A stretch of DNA of 55,653 nucleotides, from positions 53,978 through 109,630 of IMG/VR virus record IMGVR_UViG_3300039098_000023; one strand, written 5' to 3'. Made by a program: the position numbers and the translations under genes. Source of the stretch: a virus. Position 1 is the stretch's first letter. Every line of letters begins with the position of its first letter. A model generated the notes under the pieces. That model was not told where the DNA came from and did no database searches. It worked only from the letters and a program-made list of their open reading frames with translations. Below are positions 1-42,138 of the stretch, piece after piece.

Positions 1-447
1 GAACCCGCCATAGCCGCGATTAGTCTCTGGAAGTTTAAGCACTACTGGTGTGTACGCTCGTGCTACTGGCGCAAATACAATCTGAGCAATCTTGTCTCCA
101 CTACTGATAACGATAGCTTCTGAGGATGTATTATATAGAATAACACCTACATCCCCAGTGAAATCCGCATCAATAGTGCCTGGAGTATTTAGTACGGTTA
201 ACCCTTTCTTGTATGCGTTACCACTACGAGGTCTTACTTGCCCCTCGAAACCTACTGGGATAGCCATAGCGATACCTGTCTTAACTAATTTACGTGACAT
301 AGGGTGAATAACTACTGCATTATCCCCAGCTGTGCGCTCTTCATCAGTAACTAATGCTACTAGATCCATTCCAGATGCGAAGTCTGTCTCGTACACTGGA
401 AATACTGCGTCCTCGTGTAATTTCTTCATAGGTACTACGATGTCCAT
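1..447 (-). CDS. dut: dUTPase (dUTP diphosphatase), 3' end beyond window
   Basis: Hydrolyses dUTP to dUMP and pyrophosphate, keeping uracil out of phage DNA and supplying dUMP. The translated 149 residues show the trimeric dUTPase motifs in order: ASGMDL (motif 1), PRSGNAYKKG (motif 2), NTPGTIDADFTGDVGV (motif 3), SSGDKIAQIVFAPV (motif 4) and the start of motif 5, RGYGGF, at the window edge. Only the last few residues are therefore missing. The ATG at 447 has GGAGG upstream and overlaps the stop of the Mom-like gene by one base (TAATG). It belongs to the nucleotide metabolism set with dNMP kinase. Assignment is firm. Confidence 0.95.
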   Translation of the reverse strand, partial: MDIVVPMKKLHEDAVFPVYETDFASGMDLVALVTDEERTAGDNAVVIHPMSRKLVKTGIAMAIPVGFEGQVRPRSGNAYKKGLTVLNTPGTIDADFTGDVGVILYNTSSEAIVISSGDKIAQIVFAPVARAYTPVVLKLPETNRGYGGF

Positions 448-1076
448 TAATCCTCCTTCTTTGGGTAGGGTTGTTGTTTATACTTTAGTGCTTTAATAGC
501 TTTCTTTTTCCATCTTCGATCTCCTACTAGGTAAATGTATCGATGCTTTCTAGGTCTTGGTGCTAGGTAAAAGTCATCTCCGTACTTATCACGCATAGCT
601 TGTGCCCTGTTAGGTACACCTCTGAACTCATCAGCAATAGTTTGACCGTGTAGGTGTTCTTTTCCTTTCACTTTCCAGTCAGTACGCTTAGCACTAAGGC
701 CGCAGTATAAGAAGTTAGTTGCTTGATAAACAGTACCAGCGTGGCCAACACTAATATCAGCGAAGCTAACTACAATGGATTGACTAGGAATCATCTTTAG
801 GCTAGTACCTATTAAGTAGCTAGCCTCGTTATAGTTGTTTTCTAGTAGACATAACCTATTCAACTCTAGCACACTATCTTTATACTCGACACCAGCAACA
901 CCAATCCTTAGTGGGTGGCTTGGCGGTGTACCGTACGTAATGACCCCGCAAAGTATAGTATTATGGAATAGGCCAAATGCATACGAGATAGAGGGCCACC
1001 GATGAGCGTAGTGGATACCTAAAACGTATGGTTCACATTCAGCTCTGGTGATCTTCTTTACCTCGTAATTTGTCAT
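447..1076 (-). CDS. Mom-like DNA modification protein
   Basis: A 209-residue protein resembling the Mom family of phage Mu, GNAT-fold enzymes that add a carbamoylmethyl group to adenine in phage DNA and so block host restriction. Visible family-like features are YAHRWPSISYAFGLF near the N terminus, a GVITYGTPPS stretch, and LNRLCL followed by NEASYLIGTSL. The C-terminal 40 residues are strongly basic, suiting a DNA-binding enzyme. It starts at an ATG overlapping the previous stop (TAATG) and is translationally coupled to dUTPase. The family call rests on remembered motifs, not a search. A GNAT-like protein of another function is the main alternative. Confidence 0.6.
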   Translation of the reverse strand: MTNYEVKKITRAECEPYVLGIHYAHRWPSISYAFGLFHNTILCGVITYGTPPSHPLRIGVAGVEYKDSVLELNRLCLLENNYNEASYLIGTSLKMIPSQSIVVSFADISVGHAGTVYQATNFLYCGLSAKRTDWKVKGKEHLHGQTIADEFRGVPNRAQAMRDKYGDDFYLAPRPRKHRYIYLVGDRRWKKKAIKALKYKQQPYPKKED

Positions 1077-15528: not shown

Positions 15529-15982
15529 TAGCGTTCCTTCGGTACGGATGATACAACTCCTCAGCCTCTTTTCTTGCGTTAATAGCTTCATCTTTAGCGT
15601 CGAAGCGTTTACTTAGCTTAACCTCGCCGTTAACAGCAAGTCTAGCTGCCCACATACCTCTACTTTTGTCGTAACTTACACCCTTAACACCACTAGTGTT
15701 ATCTTTACGTTTAAGAGTATTTTGTCCGTTGATTGACTTGTCTGCGTCTCTTAGGTTTGATTTCCTATTGTCTAAAGAGTTGCCGTTCTTGTGGTCAACT
15801 AAGTCATAATTAACTAACTCTTTGTGTAAATACGTACGTCTTCCACTTACCCTACCAGCAACACGCATCACTCCTGTAGGTAATACGTTAATATACCAAT
15901 TGCCAGACTCGTATATATGTAAGTCTTCGTCGTCAATTAAGACTGTGTAGGGAAGACCTTTTCTGTATATAGTAAGTTCCAC
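15521..15982 (-). CDS. HNH homing endonuclease with AP2 domain
   Basis: 153 residues. The N-terminal part holds an HNH nuclease core (YLHKELVN, VDHKNGNSLDNRKSNLR). The C-terminal part is an AP2-type DNA-binding repeat (GVKGVSYDKSRGMWAARL, then F-D-A-K-D-E-A). GTG start overlapping the polymerase stop by one base, after GGAGGAGTA. Such free-standing enzymes spread by cutting alleles that lack them and are copied in during repair. It lies just behind a polymerase gene that also carries an intron endonuclease. Confidence 0.88.
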   Translation of the reverse strand: MELTIYRKGLPYTVLIDDEDLHIYESGNWYINVLPTGVMRVAGRVSGRRTYLHKELVNYDLVDHKNGNSLDNRKSNLRDADKSINGQNTLKRKDNTSGVKGVSYDKSRGMWAARLAVNGEVKLSKRFDAKDEAINARKEAEELYHPYRRNAND

Positions 15983-17115
15983 TACTCCTCCTCTTCCTCG
16001 TAAATATCTTTATAAATTTCGTGTAAGTTTTCGAAGCTCTCAGTAGTACTTGCCCAGTCTAAGCCATGCTCAGTATCTGCTAGCATAGGTATAGTTACGC
16101 CTTTTAAAGGTTCAGGATACTTACACATACAAGTTTCCATAATTTCCTTTGCTTGCATAAGAAATTCTACCTTAGCCTCGCACTCAATGGAGTCATGTAT
16201 AGTGGCAAATACCCGCATAGGACACTCACTATCACTAGCGTAACCGTATTTATGTGCAATGTTAGACCAGTCATCAATGTAGTTCTCTTGTATATCGCAC
16301 AATGAATACATCAAGCAATCCGACGCAAGCGACTGAATTGTAGCGTTAACGGCTTGACGGACTGCCCTCTCAATTACACCTTTATCTGTAGATGATACTG
16401 CTGGTACTCTACGCTTCCTACCTAATAACGACATTGAGTACCCATTCTTCTTAGTAAACTCAATAATATCTTTAATATACTGATCAATACCTGGATACTT
16501 CTCAAAGTAGTTATCTAGTATCTGTTGACATTCCTCCGTGGTCTTTTGGAACGCAGACATTAGAGCATTAACAGGCTTCTTGCTCATTAGCACACGGTTT
16601 GCTAGCAGACTAGGTATCTGGAACTTATCTACAAGCAACTCAGCAGCTTCCTTATTACCCTTAAGTGATGTAAGCTTAGGGTACTCGTACTTAGTTTTAC
16701 CTTTTTTATCAACCTCGCCTGTATCAAGAGCTACGCCTATCTCAACCATAATTTCTTTCAGGATAGCGTCAGCGCGATCAGGCGTAATCTTGATCTTACT
16801 AGATAGCGTCAGCGCCCCACCTCCGTACAGAGATAAAAATTGTATAGTCTTGCTAATGGTTCTAAGCTCAGGGTATTTGTGTTTTACCTCGTTAGCATGA
16901 CAGTCTAGGCTGAATACCTCTTTAGCGATACTCCCGTGTATGTCGATGCCTTGCTGGAAAATCTCTTCCAGCTTCTTATCTCCTGAGCATATCTGACCTA
17001 TACGCATTTCAGCAGAGCTTAAGTCAGAGGCCATAAAGACCCATCCTTCTTTAGCCTTGAAGATTCTTTTTACGTTTACTGCCTCTTCGTTGCGCTGTGG
17101 AACGTTTTGCAAATT
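15982..17115 (-). CDS. DNA polymerase family A, exon 2 (polymerase palm and fingers)
   Basis: 377 residues after splicing. Begins with the family consensus NLQNVPQR, then motif A (DLSSAEMRIGQICSGDK), motif B on the O-helix (RTISKTIQFLSLYGG) and motif C (TIHDSIE) close to the end, so the polymerase active site is complete. The unspliced frame can start at an ATG at 17157, but that 14-residue extension is intron sequence. Joined to exon 1 it restores S-S-S-N-P-N-L-Q-N-V-P without a frame change. Replicates the phage genome with the primase and helicase encoded to the right. Confidence 0.93.
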   Translation of the reverse strand, partial: NLQNVPQRNEEAVNVKRIFKAKEGWVFMASDLSSAEMRIGQICSGDKKLEEIFQQGIDIHGSIAKEVFSLDCHANEVKHKYPELRTISKTIQFLSLYGGGALTLSSKIKITPDRADAILKEIMVEIGVALDTGEVDKKGKTKYEYPKLTSLKGNKEAAELLVDKFQIPSLLANRVLMSKKPVNALMSAFQKTTEECQQILDNYFEKYPGIDQYIKDIIEFTKKNGYSMSLLGRKRRVPAVSSTDKGVIERAVRQAVNATIQSLASDCLMYSLCDIQENYIDDWSNIAHKYGYASDSECPMRVFATIHDSIECEAKVEFLMQAKEIMETCMCKYPEPLKGVTIPMLADTEHGLDWASTTESFENLHEIYKDIYEEEEE

Positions 17116-17846
17116 CATTTGTGTTACGGTACACCCGATTCCGATGTACCTCTGCATGTTTCCATGCAGATCAGACTATATCATGTCTACGTTGCAGTAG
17201 ACCCATGCGCTTCGAACTCTCTTGAGTCCTACTCTACTAGGTTCAGCCTAAGCTGCCGTTCGATAGTCGTTGCGCGTTCAATTAGGATTTACGTAGTAAT
17301 TGATGTAACTTTGTGTGATCACTTGGTGTCATCAATTGCAAGTTTTCGATATCATTGTTAGTAGGGTCTAAATCTATATGGTGGATAACGTATCCTTCGG
17401 GCATCTCAGTTAGACCGTTAGCTTCGCAGTACACTAAGTGGTGTACGAATATATGCTTACTACCAGTTCTACCTGTGAACCATGCGGGCCTTAAATGTAT
17501 TAAATAACCTTTTCCGTCGCTAATTTCACCAATGTACCTTCTACTATCTTTACCGTAGCGCCCAAAACTAGGATTATTAGCTCCAAGTTTTGAATTACGA
17601 TAGTTTTGTTTCTTTCTGATATCTCTGTACTCTTTTGTATAATTTTCAGCAACAAATTTCCATACGATTTTATAAGAAGACCTAGATGCGTCTGCTATTT
17701 TCTGTAATGTTAGTTGTGTATTCTCGTATATATATTTTACTTGTTGCATTTTGTTCTCCTAAAAGCTTCGCTCAGGATCGTCTTAGGCTTCTGCCCTTAG
17801 ATATTCCCTGAGTTCACATGGTTTTATAACCCCAATTTTATAGTTT
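17116..17846 (-). ncRNA. Group I self-splicing intron in the DNA polymerase gene
   Basis: 731 bases. The 5' exon ends AACCCU and pairs with an internal guide GGGGUU about 14 bases into the intron, giving a six-pair P1 with the required U-G wobble at the splice site. The intron ends in G. Core elements near the ends: CTCAGG and CCTGAG pairing as P4 in the 5' part; CGACTAT and ATAGTCT pairing as P7 in the 3' part; then a P9 hairpin TCTGCATG-GAAA-CATGCAGA. Splicing rebuilds the polymerase consensus exactly. The endonuclease gene fills the middle. Confidence 0.9.
17282..17749 (-). CDS. Intron-encoded HNH homing endonuclease
   Basis: 155 residues with a helix-turn-helix-like N terminus (LTLQKIADASRSSYKIVWKF), a NUMOD3-like piece (GANNPSFGRYGKDS), and a C-terminal HNH core: VHHLVYCEANG, GYVIHHIDLDPTNNDIENL, then HTKLHQ. 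It would cut the intronless polymerase gene near the insertion site and promote intron transfer. AGGAGAACAAA precedes its ATG, and the whole gene sits inside the group I intron between the P6 and P7 parts. Confidence 0.9.
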   Translation of the reverse strand: MQQVKYIYENTQLTLQKIADASRSSYKIVWKFVAENYTKEYRDIRKKQNYRNSKLGANNPSFGRYGKDSRRYIGEISDGKGYLIHLRPAWFTGRTGSKHIFVHHLVYCEANGLTEMPEGYVIHHIDLDPTNNDIENLQLMTPSDHTKLHQLLRKS

Positions 17847-19529
17847 AGGGTTAGAGCTTGACAGGCGACCAGTAGCAGCGCCAGTAATATTATAAGTAGG
17901 ATGGATTCTACCGTCAATAGTTTTACTAAGGATACCTTCTACGTATGTACTACGCATCTTACAAAGTTCGTTGTAGTTACTGATCTTATACAAAAGGTCA
18001 GAGTTGGCAGGATAATTATTCTTCCACTCATCTACGCATTCCTTATCTGTTGAAGGAGTAGTTTGCTTTCCTTCTGTGTTCCTAGCTTTAGTGTACTTAA
18101 CAATCGGTAGTCGCAAAGTTTCGAAGAATAGGACACGCTTATGGTTATTAGATGTGAGCTTAAACTTGAACTGGTAAGGCAACTTAGTAATAGGATTAAC
18201 TCGTTTACCGTTTTCCTTCATGATCTCTAATACTTCTAAGACACCCCTAGCCTCTTCAATCTTTGGGTGCTTCATCAATTCTATCTCGTAAGCTTCAATC
18301 TTCTTAGTAAGCTCAATCAAGTACTCGTTAGCGTACTCAACATCTACAGGCCAACCAGTCATTTCCATCTTAGTTGCTGTACGAGAGAACCTCATCAGCA
18401 TATAGAATACGTCTACCATATTCTCTTCTACTAGTTTATCCATGAAATGTAGGTACAATCTAAAGGTAGCATCCGTATCCACTAAAGCGTATTGAGCTAA
18501 TATATCGAACGGAATCAGATCGTAATGAAAATCTCCCATCTTCATTTTATGCTTTTTGCAGTAAGCCTTCTTAAACTTGTCTAGTTCGCTATCATAATCC
18601 CCAAGATCAGTTATGGTACACGCAGCGTACTTAAGGTCGTTAGGTGTATTCTCGTCACACAAGAACGACATATACATCGTATCTGCTGTATTAACAGTAT
18701 CAAGTACAGGAATCTTCCAAGCATGACAGATAAATTTCATATCGAACTTTAGGTTGTGACCAATTACTATAATGTCTTTGCGCTTAAATAGTTTCCTTTT
18801 TTGCTCTAAGATCCACTTCCACTCAGCCTTAGTCCAGTAACCTTTATAGAAGTCAGTGGGTATCAAGTAAGAATACCCTACTTTGTGCGTATACTGACTC
18901 ATCAGGATCTTCTTAGACTTAAAGCAGAATCCTGTTGTCTCTGTATCAAAAGCGAATAGCTTAACAGTTTCCATGTGCTTAAAGAATGCTTTAGCCTTGC
19001 CTATTGTGTCTATGATTGTGTAGTGCGTCTGGATCTTTTTAATCTCAGTAACTACATCTGTTTGTCGCTCAGTAGCTATAAGGTTAAACGTCTCATCTAG
19101 GATAGGCTTAATCTCTGGTTTATACCTAATCATAACTGGATTAGGACTAGGTATGACCTTCTGGTTTTCGTACTTAGTTGACGTTAGGACTTTGGTGAGA
19201 AATTTCTCCATCCCTTTCTGATTCATTATCTTCTCAAACGCTAAAGCTCCAACAGGTACTACTACATTGAATCCACGCTCATTGATAAGCTCTTCAATGT
19301 ATTCAATCTTTTCTTTGAACTCAGCAGCTTTAGGCTTTGGTGCTAACGTATCTGCTAAGCACACGACCGATACTTCATCAGAGGCATTGATTCCTACAGC
19401 TTCAAATTTAGATAGGAACGCTACAATTCCATCGGAAGTAGCTTTACCTTGTGATACCCATTGTTTGTTTTGTGCGTTAGCGAATACCAGTAAGATGTTA
19501 GGCTTTGGTGCTAGGCTAGCCTTGATCAA
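17847..19529 (-). CDS. DNA polymerase family A, exon 1 (N-terminal and 3'-5' exonuclease)
   Basis: 561 residues up to the splice site; without splicing it stops two codons later. The 3'-5' proofreading domain has DTETTG at 195-200, GHNLKFDMKF and the Y-x3-D type YALVDTDATF. The end GAATGRLSSSNP is the start of the polymerase domain. Residues 1-160 resemble a family 4 uracil-DNA glycosylase-like domain (VVVPVGALAFEKI, KVIPSPNPVMIR), as known for the SPO1 polymerase. TTG start at 19529, six bases after GGAGG. Full spliced product about 938 residues. Confidence 0.92.
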
Positions 19530-20144: not shown

Positions 20145-20174
20145 AGATAAAAGAAAAGCCTCAATTAAGAGGCT
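20145..20174 (-). terminator. Rho-independent terminator
   Basis: AGCCTC, loop TTAATT, GAGGCT, followed by TTTCTTTTAT on the minus strand. It closes the long primase-to-bL36 operon, about 70 bases after the bL36-like stop and just before the small RNA promoter. Confidence 0.85.
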
Positions 20175-20242: not shown

Positions 20243-20341
20243 TTACTCCGTGTGGTTAGTACATGTAACTATAATCTTTCCTGCTCGTCTATATATTTTG
20301 CAATTAGCACATACGTGTTTATTGTGTAGTTTATATTTCAA
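20243..20341 (-). CDS. Ribosomal protein bL36-like protein
   Basis: 32 residues, below usual length cut-offs. TTG start six bases after AGGAGG, overlapping the upstream gene's stop by 11 bases. It lines up with bacterial bL36 (large ribosomal subunit protein L36, RpmJ) position by position from residue 1: Cys at 11, 14 and 27 match its zinc ligands, and N13, K15, I16, R19, G21, I23 and V25 also agree. The fourth ligand, a His, is at 30 instead of 33, and the basic tail is trimmed. Followed by a terminator. A zinc protein with chance likeness is the alternative, but the register of matches argues against it. Confidence 0.7.
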   Translation of the reverse strand: MKYKLHNKHVCANCKIYRRAGKIIVTCTNHTE

Positions 20342-20696
20342 CAATAACCTCCTTCATCAAAAACCTATAGATGGCAGTTGAAAACCTAGTAGGATTAATA
20401 ATTGATTCTAAGATAGACACTTTACACATAATCCTTGAATAGTCTAAAAAGTCCCGCCACCAATCTTGTTCTTTAGCCCAGTTATATAGTTTAAAGAAGC
20501 TCTCAGGAGTAGCGAAGTTAATAGCAATAGGTAATCTACTTACACCACCTAACGGATTCCCCGATTCGTCAGTACACTTGATGCAACTATGGTCACCCCA
20601 AAAGCAAATACCCATAGCCTCAGTTAAGAATTTATCCTTGTCAGTTCTATCGTAGCATTTATGTGGTCGTTCTAGTTTCTTATCTTCCCAAGTCAT
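20331..20696 (-). CDS. Unknown protein with Cys/His pattern
   Basis: 121 residues. The N-terminal half has scattered Cys and His (PHKCYDRTDKDK, CFWGDHSCIKC) that could bind a metal; the rest is helical with aromatic residues (FKLYNWAKEQDWWRDFL). Ends in a hydrophobic strand. Lies at the end of the primase operon, overlapping the bL36-like gene. No family recognised. Confidence 0.8.
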   Translation of the reverse strand: MTWEDKKLERPHKCYDRTDKDKFLTEAMGICFWGDHSCIKCTDESGNPLGGVSRLPIAINFATPESFFKLYNWAKEQDWWRDFLDYSRIMCKVSILESIINPTRFSTAIYRFLMKEVIVEI

Positions 20697-21376
20697 AGTA
20701 CCTCCTCAGTTAGCTTTAGTGATAGTTTAAGGTGATCAGGCCAAGATTCGTACTCGTTACTAGCTTCTGTAATTACATCAGTTAGCCAGTTACCTTCTAC
20801 AGTATCAGGTTCCTGTTTAAATGACTCTATCAACTCGAACGATTCTGCTACTGATTGAGCGTCCCACAGATTACCGTCAGGCATTTCTGTATTGTTATAT
20901 TCATCACCTACAAAATTAAGCTCTAGGGCTACCCCTACAAGTTTAGCTGAGCACTTAGCTAGATTATTTAGTAAAAGTTCTGCTCTATCAAATTCTTCAC
21001 TATATTGTTGCTTATACAGTTCAGTATCTTCTTTTTGCTCTTCTAATTGCGCCCCAAGTTCCTCTTTTTCGTTTAGTAGGCTCTCATATACAGGTATGCG
21101 CGTAACGTCTAAGTCTGGCCTTTGAGTAAGTACGGCGTTACGGTTCTTCATGTCTTGGTGGTTAGCGGTCATCTGACCTAGAGCACCACTTAATTTAAAA
21201 AGTGTAGCCTCAAGTCTAGCTACTCTATCTTTGTAGTCGTTCTTTTTTACGATGCTACCTTCTAGTTTAGTTAGTAGCTCTTCGTTTTCTTTTCGTAGAG
21301 CTTCCAACTCACAACCAACACATGCACCGTAAATTATCGCAGGACTCTTCTTGTGATTGTCGCATACCTTAGTCAT
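20693..21376 (-). CDS. Coiled-coil protein with N-terminal Cys pair
   Basis: 227 residues. N-terminal CDNHKK...CVGC may bind zinc. Residues 25-130 are coiled coil, including AQLEEQKEDTELYKQQYSEE. That block is nearly repeated in the small protein at 41872-42138 (AQLEEQKEDTLLYKTQYGEE). The C-terminal third is acidic. It overlaps both neighbours. Function unknown; the shared block marks a reused phage module. Confidence 0.82.
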   Translation of the reverse strand: MTKVCDNHKKSPAIIYGACVGCELEALRKENEELLTKLEGSIVKKNDYKDRVARLEATLFKLSGALGQMTANHQDMKNRNAVLTQRPDLDVTRIPVYESLLNEKEELGAQLEEQKEDTELYKQQYSEEFDRAELLLNNLAKCSAKLVGVALELNFVGDEYNNTEMPDGNLWDAQSVAESFELIESFKQEPDTVEGNWLTDVITEASNEYESWPDHLKLSLKLTEEVL

Positions 21377-22142
21377 ACACCTCTTCCTCCACTATTGCAT
21401 ACATGTTGTTGTCGTTAGCGAACGGAGAGCTACACCAAAATTCTCCATTAGTTGGTTTGCACTCTAACCCAGTACCTGTGAACCTAAAATTTAAGCCTGT
21501 TTGGTCTGTAATAATATTGTTATTAGCTAACGCAATCAATGCCTCTTGAGCGTTCAGCTCGTACTTTAGCACGAAAGGATCTTCAGTCGTTAAATACTCC
21601 CAACAGCTAAACTCTTTATATGAAGTATTCTTACATAAATAACTTCCTTCGTACTCAGCGATAAAAATCTTCTTAGTCCAAGTATCTTCTTGCTTATTAC
21701 GAACCCAAACTGTATCGCCCTTACTAGGAGTAGTTGGTTTATCTGTAGCTAAAACTATAAAAGTTTCCTTACTTAGCTCTATTGGTGTTATTGGTGTATA
21801 CTTACCTAAATCTATTAAGTAATTAGCACCAGCGAACCCTACGATAGTTCCTTGTACTCCTCGTTGCCAATCAATCCTAAGAGGCTCAGCAAAGTACGAC
21901 CCAATTAGCTCTATAGAAGCTCCTACCTTATATACATCTGCATCTTTATTAAAGCTAAGAGCCTCTTGTACTAATTCTTGTAAATATAGTAGCTCAGTAC
22001 ATGTTTTGCTTTTTAGTATAGTCAAGTCGATATCCTCTAAACGCTTAAATATCACATCATTTTCTATACAACCCATATCACTACCGCTACAGTCACCCCT
22101 AGATTCGAATAAACATCCGTGTTCTTCAAATTTCTGTTCCAT
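21369..22142 (-). CDS. Unknown protein, paralogue of 42405-42842 product
   Basis: 257 residues. The first 30 hold Cys residues (CLFESRGDCSGSDMGC). The middle is beta-rich with GDTVWVRNK. The C-terminal 90 residues (DPFVLKYELNAQEALIALA, then WCSSPFANDNNMYAIVEE) match the product at 42405-42842 (DPYALRYELTAQQALVAAW, WCASPFQNDDLMYAIVEG). In both places a gene with the EEQKEDT coil block lies downstream. Function unknown. Confidence 0.82.
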   Translation of the reverse strand: MEQKFEEHGCLFESRGDCSGSDMGCIENDVIFKRLEDIDLTILKSKTCTELLYLQELVQEALSFNKDADVYKVGASIELIGSYFAEPLRIDWQRGVQGTIVGFAGANYLIDLGKYTPITPIELSKETFIVLATDKPTTPSKGDTVWVRNKQEDTWTKKIFIAEYEGSYLCKNTSYKEFSCWEYLTTEDPFVLKYELNAQEALIALANNNIITDQTGLNFRFTGTGLECKPTNGEFWCSSPFANDNNMYAIVEEEVYD

Positions 22143-22383: not shown

Positions 22384-22513
22384 TGTTTTTCTCCTTTTCA
22401 GTAGATCGTTTAGCCATTTTGCATATAAGAGCAAATGATACTGGTAACACGGATGCTAAAATTAAAAACCAAAATACCGACCCAATGAAGCTACTAAACT
22501 CGCTAAGGCTCAC
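22373..22513 (-). CDS. 46-residue membrane protein
   Basis: GTG start at 22513, six bases after AGGAGG, just inside the primase stop. Residues 10-31 are one hydrophobic span (IGSVFWFLILASVLPVSFAL) followed by a charged, basic tail (KMAKRSTEKEKN). Overlaps the next gene by 11 bases. Signal-anchor type topology. Function unknown. Confidence 0.68.
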   Translation of the reverse strand: MSLSEFSSFIGSVFWFLILASVLPVSFALICKMAKRSTEKEKNIES

Positions 22514-23567
22514 TCTTTACCTCCTTATGCCAAGGTATGTTCATGCATAAGCCATTCATGCTATAAGGGCAATCCTGCATACATAATTCATACGGTTTAT
22601 TATCAAGTCTAGGTTTTACCCCATTAGTACCTTCAAGGCACTTAGGTAGCACTGGTTCGTGTAGATTCTCTATACCATACTGAATTAAGTAGTCAGGTAG
22701 ATCGCCTAGATCCATACCTTCTGGTACGTTATCTGTGTTTGCAATATACACAGGGAAATATTGACTAACCATTGAGCATACGATTTGCTCAGCAACTAAT
22801 CCTGCTTTATCATTGTCACGCCAGAATACTACAAAATCTAAGTCTAAGTCGAGTAGCATTAGTAGCTTTTTTCTAGTAAAGTTGTGGCAACCAAAGAAAT
22901 TTAAGCAAGGGAATCCTTTATCTACAGCGTTCAACGAATGAAAAATTCCCTCGGCTAATATAACGTATCGCTTCTCCAAATGATCTAACATAGGCTTAAC
23001 TACATCGAAAGGGTATAACCAATTATCTTTACACGTAGAGTCTTTAGTTCTAATGTACTTAGCTGTGGCGCTACCTGTTAAGTCTCTAGCATCGACACCA
23101 AGAAGCTCCCCTCTAAGTATAATAGGGAAGCAAATACGATCTGTATAGCGACCTTTAGATACCTTAACTGCGCCAAGCATTTCGTACGTACTTGCTGATA
23201 TCCCACGAAAGTCCTCAGTCCAAGGTGCGCCACTAGGGAAAAAGATTTCTCTCTTCCTAGAGCCAGCTCTAACGTTATCAGATTCTCTGGCTAGGTTCCC
23301 TAGTTGCGCGTTCAAGTTTGTTATAGCGAACTCTTCTTCGTCTAAGTCTTCTCCAAGTAACCACCTAAGAGTCTTATCCCTATTTAAACTATAATTACAG
23401 GAGAAGCAGTGTGCTTGGAATGTGGAACCGTTGATGTTGAAGCTAGGCTTACTATCTCTGCCTCCACTATGACTACCTTGGTTAGGACATACGATCCCTA
23501 CTTCGTCACCGCCTTTGTTTACGTAGTGAATACCTTTTGCTTCTAGCAACGCTCTAAGATCGTACAT
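22503..23567 (-). CDS. DnaG-type DNA primase
   Basis: 354 residues. A CHC2 zinc finger is clear: C27, H33, C54 and C57 with KPSFNI between. A TOPRIM core follows with VILAEGIFHSLNA and WRDNDKAG. It lacks the DnaB-binding C-terminal domain of bacterial DnaG. Instead the last 50 residues carry a second Cys set (CLEG, C, CPYSMNGLC) and may bind zinc. It makes RNA primers for the phage polymerase. ATG start after TTAGGAGTTTAT. Confidence 0.9.
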   Translation of the reverse strand: MYDLRALLEAKGIHYVNKGGDEVGIVCPNQGSHSGGRDSKPSFNINGSTFQAHCFSCNYSLNRDKTLRWLLGEDLDEEEFAITNLNAQLGNLARESDNVRAGSRKREIFFPSGAPWTEDFRGISASTYEMLGAVKVSKGRYTDRICFPIILRGELLGVDARDLTGSATAKYIRTKDSTCKDNWLYPFDVVKPMLDHLEKRYVILAEGIFHSLNAVDKGFPCLNFFGCHNFTRKKLLMLLDLDLDFVVFWRDNDKAGLVAEQIVCSMVSQYFPVYIANTDNVPEGMDLGDLPDYLIQYGIENLHEPVLPKCLEGTNGVKPRLDNKPYELCMQDCPYSMNGLCMNIPWHKEVKSEP

Positions 23568-29608: not shown

Positions 29609-29868
29609 TATACCTCCTCAAGCATTCCGCAATCAATTGACCACAATTCATCGTCTGAGCTGCAAACGTTAATAGATCCTGAGAACAGCGATACTACTGT
29701 AGTGCCACATAAGTGCTTCATCTCTGTCGCGAAGTAGTGTGGTGTGTCAATTCCTAAAGCATATTCGTCAGTTGACGAGTCAGCTGGTTCGTACCCAAAC
29801 TCTTCTAGCATAGAGTCCCAAGTTCTAATTCTATAAGTCTTTCCTGCTACTACGTCTTCTGCTTTCAT
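29608..29868 (-). CDS. Single MKAEDVV-domain protein
   Basis: 86 residues, consisting only of the MKAEDVVAGKTYRIRTWDSM domain that is fused to other parts at 28922-29608 and 34816-36081. Conserved features are the first strand pair, a later H-L-C-G-T segment, and a closing W-x-I-x-x-x-M-L-E-E. GGAGGTAGT binding site; tandem with its longer paralogue. Confidence 0.8.
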   Translation of the reverse strand: MKAEDVVAGKTYRIRTWDSMLEEFGYEPADSSTDEYALGIDTPHYFATEMKHLCGTTVVSLFSGSINVCSSDDELWSIDCGMLEEV

Positions 29869-31277
29869 ACTACCTCCAGTTCTAAGTTTAGGTCTTCAGC
29901 TGATTCCATTAACTTATGGTACAAGTTTAGCTCAGGATTGTCAAGGACTTTTTCTAAAAGTGCGTCCAGCACTACACCTAACCGTGGGCCTTTCTTGATA
30001 CCTAGATGAATAAGGTCGTTTCCATCTATCTTCAAGTCTTTTCGCGTAAATGGTGCATGTTCCTCGATACCTTCAAGAATATCGTCGAATACTGCAAACG
30101 TATCTTTAAGAACTTTAACGTAATTACTAGGGCTGTGACCAACAATGTCAGCTACAATAAGATCCTGTAGATCCGTAACTACTTGAACTCTAATGTCTTT
30201 ATCAGTAGAATCAGTTAGCCTACCAACAAGACGACGAATCCCGCCTTTGCGCATCTTAGGACTTCTGTACATATGCTCATAGCATAAATTAGCGACGGTA
30301 TCAGTTAGTTCTGTACTAGCATTTAGACTTCCTAGAACCTCTCTAGCAATTCTTGCGCTAGCCTTATGGTGTCCGTAGAAGTGACCAGCGCCGTCTTCAC
30401 CTACTGAGTAAGTCTCAGGCTTTCCTATGTCATGTAAAAGTGCTGCCCATCGTAAATGTAGTTTACTAGGTATATGGTCAACTACAGCACAAATATGACC
30501 GAAAACATCTAAAGTGTGATGACTACTGTTTTGGTTAAATCCTATTGTAGGTACTAGTTGTGGTATAACAAACTCAAGTAGTCCTGTTTCTTCTAGCAAC
30601 TTTAGCCCTACGCTAGGTGTTGGCGACATTAAAATGTGATCTAGCTCAATCTTAATACGCTCTTTAGCGACGCTGGTGAGTCTATGTGATTTAGACGTTA
30701 TTGCGCACCTTACAGACTCAGATAGTCTTAGGTTATGTTGAGTAGCTTGTCGAATATACCGAAGCATTCTAACAGGATCTTCAATAATCCTATCAACAGC
30801 TAACCCTACAGGTACTACAAGCCCTACAGCCTTAACGTCAAACTCACCACCAAAAGGGTCAACTAAATATTCATGTATAGGATCGTAAGCCATAGCATTC
30901 ATTGTACTATCTCTACGACTAAGATCTTCTAGTAGCGTAACATCTTCGAACTTTACAGATTCAGGTCTACGACCATCTACGTACTCACCATCAACACGGT
31001 AAGTAGCAACCTCAACACTCATATCGCTTAAGTCTGGTACGCTAATAATTACTATACCAAACGCTTTACCTACGCTCTTTGTAATAGTACCATCTGCATC
31101 AAACAGAGCAAGTACCTCGTCAGGGGTAGCGTTAGTACTCATGTCCCAATCCTTCGGCTCTTTACCTAAGATTGAGTCTCTAACTGCGCCACCTACAACA
31201 TACGCATCGTAATCATTTGCGCTCAGTACGCTAGCAATAAAGCTAACTATTTCAGGTACTTCGATTTTAATACTCAT
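29865..31277 (-). CDS. CCA-adding tRNA nucleotidyltransferase
   Basis: 470 residues, a class II CCA-adding enzyme or close relative. Head: VVGGAVRDSILG at 27-38 and DWDMSTNA at 43-50. Further motifs are RRDSTMNAMAYDP and VDRIIEDPVRMLRYIRQA. The C-terminal half has an HD-type domain (LHDIGKPETY, FYGHHKASA). It would add or repair the 3' CCA of tRNAs. Together with the RlaP-like protein and RNA ligase to its right it suggests phage tRNA maintenance or repair. Length and motif order are normal. Confidence 0.92.
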   Translation of the reverse strand: MSIKIEVPEIVSFIASVLSANDYDAYVVGGAVRDSILGKEPKDWDMSTNATPDEVLALFDADGTITKSVGKAFGIVIISVPDLSDMSVEVATYRVDGEYVDGRRPESVKFEDVTLLEDLSRRDSTMNAMAYDPIHEYLVDPFGGEFDVKAVGLVVPVGLAVDRIIEDPVRMLRYIRQATQHNLRLSESVRCAITSKSHRLTSVAKERIKIELDHILMSPTPSVGLKLLEETGLLEFVIPQLVPTIGFNQNSSHHTLDVFGHICAVVDHIPSKLHLRWAALLHDIGKPETYSVGEDGAGHFYGHHKASARIAREVLGSLNASTELTDTVANLCYEHMYRSPKMRKGGIRRLVGRLTDSTDKDIRVQVVTDLQDLIVADIVGHSPSNYVKVLKDTFAVFDDILEGIEEHAPFTRKDLKIDGNDLIHLGIKKGPRLGVVLDALLEKVLDNPELNLYHKLMESAEDLNLELEVV

Positions 31278-33592: not shown

Positions 33593-34819
33593 TTAGTCTG
33601 TTACGTTCTTCGCCTCTTCCTTGTCAGCCTTTTTATCAGCCCAAATCAAGAAGTCTGGGTTAATTGCCTTCATCGAAGTTTTACCGTCCAAAGTGCGAAT
33701 AACAACCCCTTCACGCTTAGCTAAATCTCCTACTAACGACCTACCTTTAGCGTACTCTACCAGCTCATCTACTCCTTTGTCAATAGAAAACGACTCTAAG
33801 AAAGGTACGGTATTTAGTCCTAGCAACGCTGATACGTCGTTGATGTCAGACCAACCTTCGTACTGCCTAGTATCTACATTATAAACGGAGAAAATACGAT
33901 ACTGGTGCTCTTTTAGTTTATGCTTGTTGCTGTTACACTTCGGCCCAACCAGTTCTCCTTGAATAGCAAAACCTTTAGGGTATTTAGCCATTAGCAAGTC
34001 AAGAACTCGCTTAGGTAATTCAGCAGGTTTAAGCTTCATCTTATAAGCCATCTTCCAGAAGTCAGTATCTTTCTGGTTAGTACCTTCGTAGTGCGTACCT
34101 TTAAAGAACTTCTTATTTACCCAAAATACCAACTTTTCGAACCAACTCTTTTCTGGTAGCTCATCAAGTAACTCCAGATTACGAGAGCAAACCCCGAACC
34201 GAACTCCTCCGTCTACTTTTGTATCTGGAACGTAGTAACAGGTCATACTAGATCCGTCTAACTTCTCGGTTACGTACACCTCCGTTCCTTGCAGTCTTCG
34301 TATCAACGCTGGCAACTTCTGGATTCTCTGCTCATCAGTTTTAGGGATGAAACTAGGGAACGCTAACGTATAAGGATTAACAGCTATAGCTTTTCCGTTA
34401 GACGTACTAGGCAGGTTCGATTTATCTGTCTCATACTTCTCAACCTTAAGAACCTTAGTTAGGTCTGTTCCTAGCTTATAGAACTTGTAGCCAGTGCCTT
34501 GACAGATAGCTTTAGAGTCGTGTAACTCTTTATCTGTAAGCTGGTTAATCGGCATACAGTAACCTTGAGAATACACACCACGCATTTTGATAGTACGAAC
34601 TCTGCACTTACCTTTAGTATACTCAACGAACTCATCGTGTCGCTCATCAGTATGTGGTAGAAGCGAATCTACTTCAAAATATACAACCATATCGCCTACT
34701 GAGTATAAACCCTTTCGCACTATAACCTTCCACCCTTCAATTTGCGCTAACTCAATTCGGTCTGCGCCATCAATTGGGAATAACTCAGTAATCTCTTGAA
34801 TACTTGCTAAAGCTCTCAT
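33593..34819 (-). CDS. RNA ligase, Rnl5 (DRB0094) type
   Basis: 408 residues. The architecture matches the Deinococcus DRB0094 RNA ligase: an N-terminal OB-like module (MRALASIQEITELFPIDGAD...GDMVVYFEVDSLLP) followed by the adenylyltransferase domain. Motif I is VTEKLDGSS with Lys186, then a CSRN segment, motif III FAIQGELVG, motif IV REGVVIRT, and motif V near KAINPDFLIW. Rnl5-type enzymes seal 3'-OH/5'-phosphate nicks in RNA-containing duplexes. Neighbouring RlaP-like and CCA-adding enzymes point to RNA repair. Confidence 0.88.
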   Translation of the reverse strand: MRALASIQEITELFPIDGADRIELAQIEGWKVIVRKGLYSVGDMVVYFEVDSLLPHTDERHDEFVEYTKGKCRVRTIKMRGVYSQGYCMPINQLTDKELHDSKAICQGTGYKFYKLGTDLTKVLKVEKYETDKSNLPSTSNGKAIAVNPYTLAFPSFIPKTDEQRIQKLPALIRRLQGTEVYVTEKLDGSSMTCYYVPDTKVDGGVRFGVCSRNLELLDELPEKSWFEKLVFWVNKKFFKGTHYEGTNQKDTDFWKMAYKMKLKPAELPKRVLDLLMAKYPKGFAIQGELVGPKCNSNKHKLKEHQYRIFSVYNVDTRQYEGWSDINDVSALLGLNTVPFLESFSIDKGVDELVEYAKGRSLVGDLAKREGVVIRTLDGKTSMKAINPDFLIWADKKADKEEAKNVTD

Positions 34820-41871: not shown

Positions 41872-42138
41872 CTATAAGAAAGTGTTCATCCTCATCGTAT
41901 AGCCACATCGCGCCAGTTGGGCTTCAGCTTTATCAGCCCGATCAAACTCTTCACCGTACTGGGTTTTATACAATAAAGTGTCTTCCTTCTGCTCTTCCAG
42001 TTGTGCCCGAAGCTCTGTGTTCTCTTTTTTAAGCTCCTGCCCAACTTCATTTGCCACTTGACGTAGTGCTGTCTGTAGTGATTGGCTGTTTGGCATTCCG
42101 AGCTGATTCATAATGTCTTTATATCGTTCATCGTTCAT
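41872..42138 (-). CDS. Small coiled-coil protein, paralogue of 20693-21376 block
   Basis: 88 residues, coiled coil from residue 25 to 75. Its AQLEEQKEDTLLYKTQYGEE block is almost the same as in the larger protein at 20693-21376. GGAGGGTTAGGTT site. Together with the gene at 42405-42842 it repeats a gene pair found at 20.7-22.1 kb. Function unknown. Confidence 0.8.
   Translation of the reverse strand: MNDERYKDIMNQLGMPNSQSLQTALRQVANEVGQELKKENTELRAQLEEQKEDTLLYKTQYGEEFDRADKAEAQLARCGYTMRMNTFL

Follow-up and report, generated by a model that had tools for sequence, protein, structure and literature searches.

The window analysed here is a 55,653-nucleotide stretch that forms part of a 114.7-kb virus record, and its minus strand carries a bL36-like gene (rpmJ homologue) of 32 codons at positions 20243..20341, with a TTG start at 20341 and a stop codon at 20243-20245. 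Translation of this minus-strand frame (20341->20243) from the TTG start to the stop gives MKYKLHNKHVCANCKIYRRAGKIIVTCTNHTE. A Shine-Dalgarno sequence, AAGGAGG (20348..20354, minus strand), lies upstream of the start; the sequence in front of the TTG reads AAGGAGGTTATTG, and six bases separate the end of AGGAGG from the start codon. The earlier note on this DNA, which had described a TTG-started frame six bases after AGGAGG without naming the strand, was thus correct, and the strand is the minus one. AGGAGG at 4-9 bases 5' of the start was found for 13 of the 52 long minus-strand ORFs vs 3 of 298 short ORFs. The codon usage of the gene, with a log-odds value of -0.36, is uninformative at such a short length.

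The gene is tightly embedded among its neighbours. The 3' end of the upstream gene (20331..20696, minus strand; 121 aa, no Pfam match) overlaps the start of the bL36-like gene by 11 bases, an arrangement suggestive of translational coupling between the two. The genes before it, at 20693-21376 (minus strand; 227 aa, no family above cut-off, 4-base overlap with the next gene) and 21369-22142, overlap likewise, so the bL36-like gene forms the end of a compact gene row, which is probably an operon. About 70 bases 3' of its stop codon lies an intrinsic-terminator-like hairpin with a T-rich tail (20157..20174, minus strand; AGCCTC-TTAATT-GAGGCT followed by TTTCTTTT), which matches the consensus. The bL36-like gene is therefore probably the last in its transcription unit; four terminator-like sites were found in the region vs 3.2 expected from shuffled DNA, which makes the hairpin weak evidence alone. 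Within the same gene row, residues 96-143 of the 20693-21376 product recur as a 60% identical 48-residue stretch at window positions 41902-42045, a domain shared within the phage.

We compared the 32-residue product with protein family models. The NCBIfam equivalog model TIGR01022 (rpmJ_bact) matched residues 1-29 with 29.7 bits against a cut-off of 22.7 (E 5e-7), and the cut-off was also passed in a six-frame search, with 25.7 bits for the window gene. Pfam PF00444, the sole Pfam family matched, gave 25.7 bits (E 1.2e-5) and missed its gathering threshold of 26.1 by 0.4 bits. The bL36 profile search proposed in the earlier note thus came out positive with TIGR01022 and just short of the threshold with PF00444. 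A sequence search of the PDB matched bL36 chains from E 7e-5; WD40 matches in the same search were discarded as repeat-score artefacts, worth about 2-3 bits per stretch.

Additionally, we built a custom HMM from 18 bL36s, with the window protein left out. Among the 1358 ORFs of the window, it gave the peptide 33.2 bits (E 3e-9) and the runner-up 8.0 bits, and its top score on 100 Markov-random windows was 15.5 bits. In 20,000 shuffles that held the three cysteines fixed, the top score was 25.2 bits vs 33.2 bits for the real peptide, indicating that the resemblance exceeds the common zinc pattern. The alignment to bL36 is gapless from residue 1 and places C11, C14 and C27 on the zinc ligand positions C-x2-C-x12-C, while K2, K15, R19, G21 and V25 fall on positions that are invariant in the alignment used; identity to cellular bL36s is 34-48%. 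The coincidences with bL36 previously listed by eye (C11, C14, C27, N13, K15, I16, R19, G21, I23 and V25) are all recovered in this alignment, those at N13 and I23 depending on which bL36 is compared. A frame this short with a TTG start might be expected to arise by chance, or the cysteines might belong to a zinc finger other than bL36. Both are contradicted by the TIGR01022 and PF00444 matches, by the ranking of structural matches in Foldseek and by the random windows and cysteine-keeping shuffles, on which we rejected a chance frame or generic zinc finger as exceedingly improbable. Judged from its sequence, the 32-residue frame is almost certainly a homologue of bL36 from residue 1 to about residue 29.

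The C-terminus, in contrast, departs from that of bL36. With the zinc-binding A type of bacterial bL36 the window protein shares residues 1-29 without gaps, the cysteines C11/C14/C27, the residues K2, K15, R19, G21 and V25, and the predicted strands. Yet it has 32 residues instead of 37-38, with S6 and I26 replaced, and it lacks the canonical His and the [KR]H-KQ-[RK]-QG tail of bacterial bL36. The protein ends at E32, so that this conserved tail is missing entirely, and no tail hidden by a frameshift was found in the other two reading frames. The canonical fourth ligand, a His at C27+5 or +6, is missing too, and His30 (C27+3) is the only candidate for a fourth zinc ligand. The earlier note had spoken of a shifted zinc His and a trimmed basic tail; the first observation stands, and the second somewhat understated the change, as the tail is gone altogether.

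Bacterial and archaeal genomes, about 85,000 in number, were scanned for frames that resemble bL36 and carry a His at C27+3. All 16 cellular bL36s with such a His keep both the full tail and the canonical His (16/16), a count limited to pattern-matching proteins, so that a tail-less cellular bL36 could still exist. The endings 'CTDHRHKQRQG', 'CENHRHKQRQG' and 'CKDHSHKQKQV' are cellular examples in which the C27+3 His coexists with the tail. The AlphaFold2 model of the window protein has a mean pLDDT of 72, with strands at 15-19 and 22-26, and a control cellular bL36 (L143) modelled with the same alignment showed the same strands at a pLDDT of 64.7, confidence being modest in both. The best 34 Foldseek matches of the model are all ribosomal bL36 chains, with a lowest E of 0.28 and none significant alone at this length. 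Since the input alignment of the model was itself made of bL36s, the fold brings little evidence in addition to the profile matches. Given the missing canonical His and tail and the narrowly missed Pfam threshold, the protein should be classed as a working bL36 only with reservation.

The loss of the 3' end could also mean that the gene is a remnant in decay, captured as an rpmJ not long ago and now without function. Its truncation and neutral codon usage would fit such decay, and no relatives were found for a selection test. However, the three cysteines have all survived, as have the invariant residues, although identity to cellular bL36s is only 34-48%, the ribosome-binding site is near-perfect, the overlap with the upstream gene is tight, and no trace of the tail remains downstream. 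Neutral decay is not expected to spare the cysteines, the invariant residues, the ribosome-binding site and the overlap, and we regard decay as quite improbable.

The bL36-like gene sits in a genuine viral genome, in its replication region. The virus record encodes a T5-like terminase, capsid, polymerase, primase and helicase, of which the terminase, capsid and polymerase are about 26-35% identical to those of T5-like phages (Demerecviridae); no nucleotide match to sequenced phages was found for 24.9 kb around the gene. A phage DNA primase is encoded upstream (22503..23567, minus strand), and the N-terminal part of a T5-like family A DNA polymerase lies on the other side (17838..19529, minus strand). 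These phage genes on both flanks, together with the overlap with the neighbouring gene, rule out host contamination or a chimera. No ribosomal operon neighbours surround the bL36-like gene, whereas bacterial rpmJ lies in the spc/alpha ribosomal operons. With the profile matches and a T5-like phage genome around the gene, the earlier suggestion of a phage-encoded bL36 homologue is upheld. The virus record also holds ten tRNA genes within less than 3 kb (L035 11627-14393), and in the window an RNA ligase is encoded at 33593-34819 and a tRNA nucleotidyltransferase at 29865-31277, which together look like a tRNA supply and repair kit. We sought bS21 in the same virus record as well and did not find it.

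To place the gene among other phages, 50 records were searched with PF00444; many of them are fragments, and 47 are nearly all T5-like polymerase relatives, including four sequenced phages. Matches occurred in 3 of the 50 records, all three already known from a pattern scan, and the bL36 family was absent from the 47 polymerase-related records (0/47). The nearest relative, a 7.9-kb contig (L044) whose polymerase is 52% identical, lacks the gene within those 7.9 kb, and no other close relative emerged from the polymerase-based search. The bL36-like gene is thus lineage-specific as far as visible. Relatives of the window gene itself were not found in the viral scans and phage searches; the pattern scans covered 2.9 million viral contigs, a set in which records near to the window may be missing.

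Three further phage settings with a bL36 were found: a 735-kb phage and its relative, a 61.6-kb contig, and an actinobacterial prophage. All these proteins exceed the TIGR01022 cut-off and are 28-38% identical to the window protein. The bL36 of the 735-kb huge phage LR756501 came from a GenBank phage protein search (L156 3001-3117 corresponds to LR756501.1 343502-343615, reverse), and its gene adjoins an RtcB-like ligase gene in a GenBank record without annotated genes. This protein is full-length and lacks C11 and the zinc His. An identical protein is encoded in a 108-kb contig (L159); the two genes differ at three synonymous codons and at no replacement codon. The 61.6-kb phage contig, which has phage-type helicase, PhoH and ATPase genes (G001), encodes a canonical bL36. 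The third setting is a prophage of actinobacterial appearance that has integrase and tail genes (G047/L158), whose bL36-like frame (L158 1961-2074) keeps C11 and C14, carries a His at 27 and a Cys six residues later, so that the ligand order is swapped, and ends in a different tail. The earlier note had named a lack of conservation in related phages as a refutation, and this applies in part, as the 47 polymerase-related records lack the gene; its wider idea gains support from the unrelated phages that carry bL36, in one case conserved between two relatives. We consider it possible, though on balance doubtful, that several unrelated phage lineages captured bL36 independently and that some of them trimmed the tail or altered the zinc site, giving function-altered ribosomes in infection.

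A relaxed pattern scan added no new bL36, and a scan with the spacing off by one, an unplanned control, gave 18 matches, none of them a bL36. Several other matches were set aside. The match in an Acinetobacter MD-2021a 'phage' record belongs to an intact bacterial rpsE-secY-rpmJ-rpsM-rpoA operon, and matches in Salmonella WGS, OR84xxxx and similar GenBank 'phage' records are suspected to be host DNA. Prophage contig L034, which adjoins a host infA-rpmJ pair, was discarded. At the end of contig L029 (3864-3956), a run of A links rpmJ to a phage frame, and this junction may be an assembly chimera or reflect phage integration into rpmJ.

Virus-encoded ribosomal proteins have been described before (bS21, bL12, bL9, bL31, bL33 and the PhiMa05 set), and in them, as here, a ribosomal protein gene is carried by a phage. 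Two of them, bS21 and bL12, have been tested by experiment, and the main text of Mizuno et al. reports that the viral forms enter E. coli 70S ribosomes (PMC6375957). The main text of the 735-kb phage paper names S4, S1, S21 and L7/L12 only (PMC7162821), and L36 goes unmentioned in the main texts of Mizuno et al. (PMC6375957) and of the PhiMa05 paper (PMC13157829), supplementary lists aside. Searches of further papers likewise turned up no viral bL36; on the main texts covered, priority is uncertain. Among cellular proteins, the bL36B/YkgO type is likewise an alternative bL36 and is known to be exchanged into ribosomes. It has no zinc motif (PMC9959377) and keeps a tail, whereas the window protein keeps the cysteines and has lost the tail; the NCBIfam type B bL36 model gave the window protein 13.4 bits vs a cut-off of 70.

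We propose that the phage captured a bacterial bL36, which was then trimmed and exapted. The peptide would form a small zinc ribbon in which C11, C14, C27 and probably H30 bind the metal, and would enter the bL36 pocket of the host 50S during infection. Without the tail, contacts with the surrounding 23S rRNA would be incomplete and rRNA packing would be altered, which might shift the behaviour of the ribosome toward the needs of the phage and retune translation, whether by activation, specialisation or partial inhibition. Incorporation of the phage bL36 into the host 50S, with remodelling of the ribosome, seems to us evenly balanced between true and false. In E. coli, bL36 is non-essential, and its A and B forms swap on existing ribosomes (PMC9959377). 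It lies in a pocket of 23S rRNA, and ribosomes that lack it translate about 30% less in vitro (PMC9959377). The entry of viral bS21 and bL12 into E. coli ribosomes and the retention of bL36 by other phages also speak for incorporation. The ten tRNA genes, the RNA ligase and the tRNA nucleotidyltransferase are in keeping with phage investment in translation. Against incorporation count the burial of bL36 in its RNA pocket, which makes exchange sterically difficult (PMC9959377), and the absence of the near-invariant tail, in which the usual fourth zinc ligand and probably contacts to rRNA reside, along with the narrowly missed Pfam threshold, the uninformative codon usage and a search that found no close relative in which to gauge selection.

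That exactly the conserved tail is lost also agrees with a decoy or dominant-negative peptide, which would take the bL36 site or block late 50S assembly, so that host translation or the assembly of new ribosomes falls. The C-terminal part of the prophage relative (L158) is likewise changed, and ribosomes without bL36 are the ~30% less active ones mentioned above (PMC9959377). Moreover, the 50S is the target of the phage protein PhiKZ014, whose pull-down enriches uL30, bL35 and bL36 (PMC10914614). However, a lytic phage also needs translation, poisoning through a non-essential protein such as bL36 would be mild, and the full tail persists in two other bL36 forms from phages; we therefore hold such a decoy to be unlikely. 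The zinc core is retained while the tail is lost, and the gene row lies near replication genes, which would equally suit a zinc-ribbon peptide exapted for binding RNA or DNA off the ribosome, for example as a regulator of the operon mRNA or as a partner of the nearby replication proteins. CxxC...CxxH is a workable zinc knuckle, which counts for such a peptide. Its conservation outside the cysteines is nevertheless that of bL36, including the invariant K2, K15, R19, G21 and V25, and a function off the ribosome appears rather improbable. Among the rivals to incorporation we rank a decoy or assembly block first, then the off-ribosome peptide, with decay last.

The known phage-encoded ribosomal proteins form a modest set and are described as mostly dynamic and easily exchanged. 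With a tail-less bL36, this set would gain a buried protein that contacts rRNA. The gene suggests that some phages remodel the large ribosomal subunit of the host during infection. If incorporation holds true, the peptide, at 32 residues, would act as a ribosome-remodelling effector, and it would provide a very small and easily tested means of finding out whether a phage is able to retune the large subunit of its host. Genes of about 30 codons are readily overlooked by gene finders and can conceal such functions, the bL36 in the unannotated 735-kb phage record being one example.

Other genes of this virus merit mention in their own right. The family A polymerase is split in the window into two frames, 17838-19529 and 15982-17157, which are separated by a 155-codon frame (17282-17749), while the polymerase of the relative L044 is unsplit (954 aa); an intron, an intein-like element or a homing-endonuclease insertion is possible. 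The virus record also encodes PhoH and NAD-salvage-like genes. At L035 6674-9233 (record coordinates, outside the window), a nicotinamide phosphoribosyltransferase-like gene adjoins a nucleotidyltransferase-NUDIX gene, a pair that likely serves NAD salvage and perhaps counter-defence. Finally, window positions 447-1076 encode a Mom-family protein (PF25680, E 1e-40), which suggests a modified adenine in the phage DNA.
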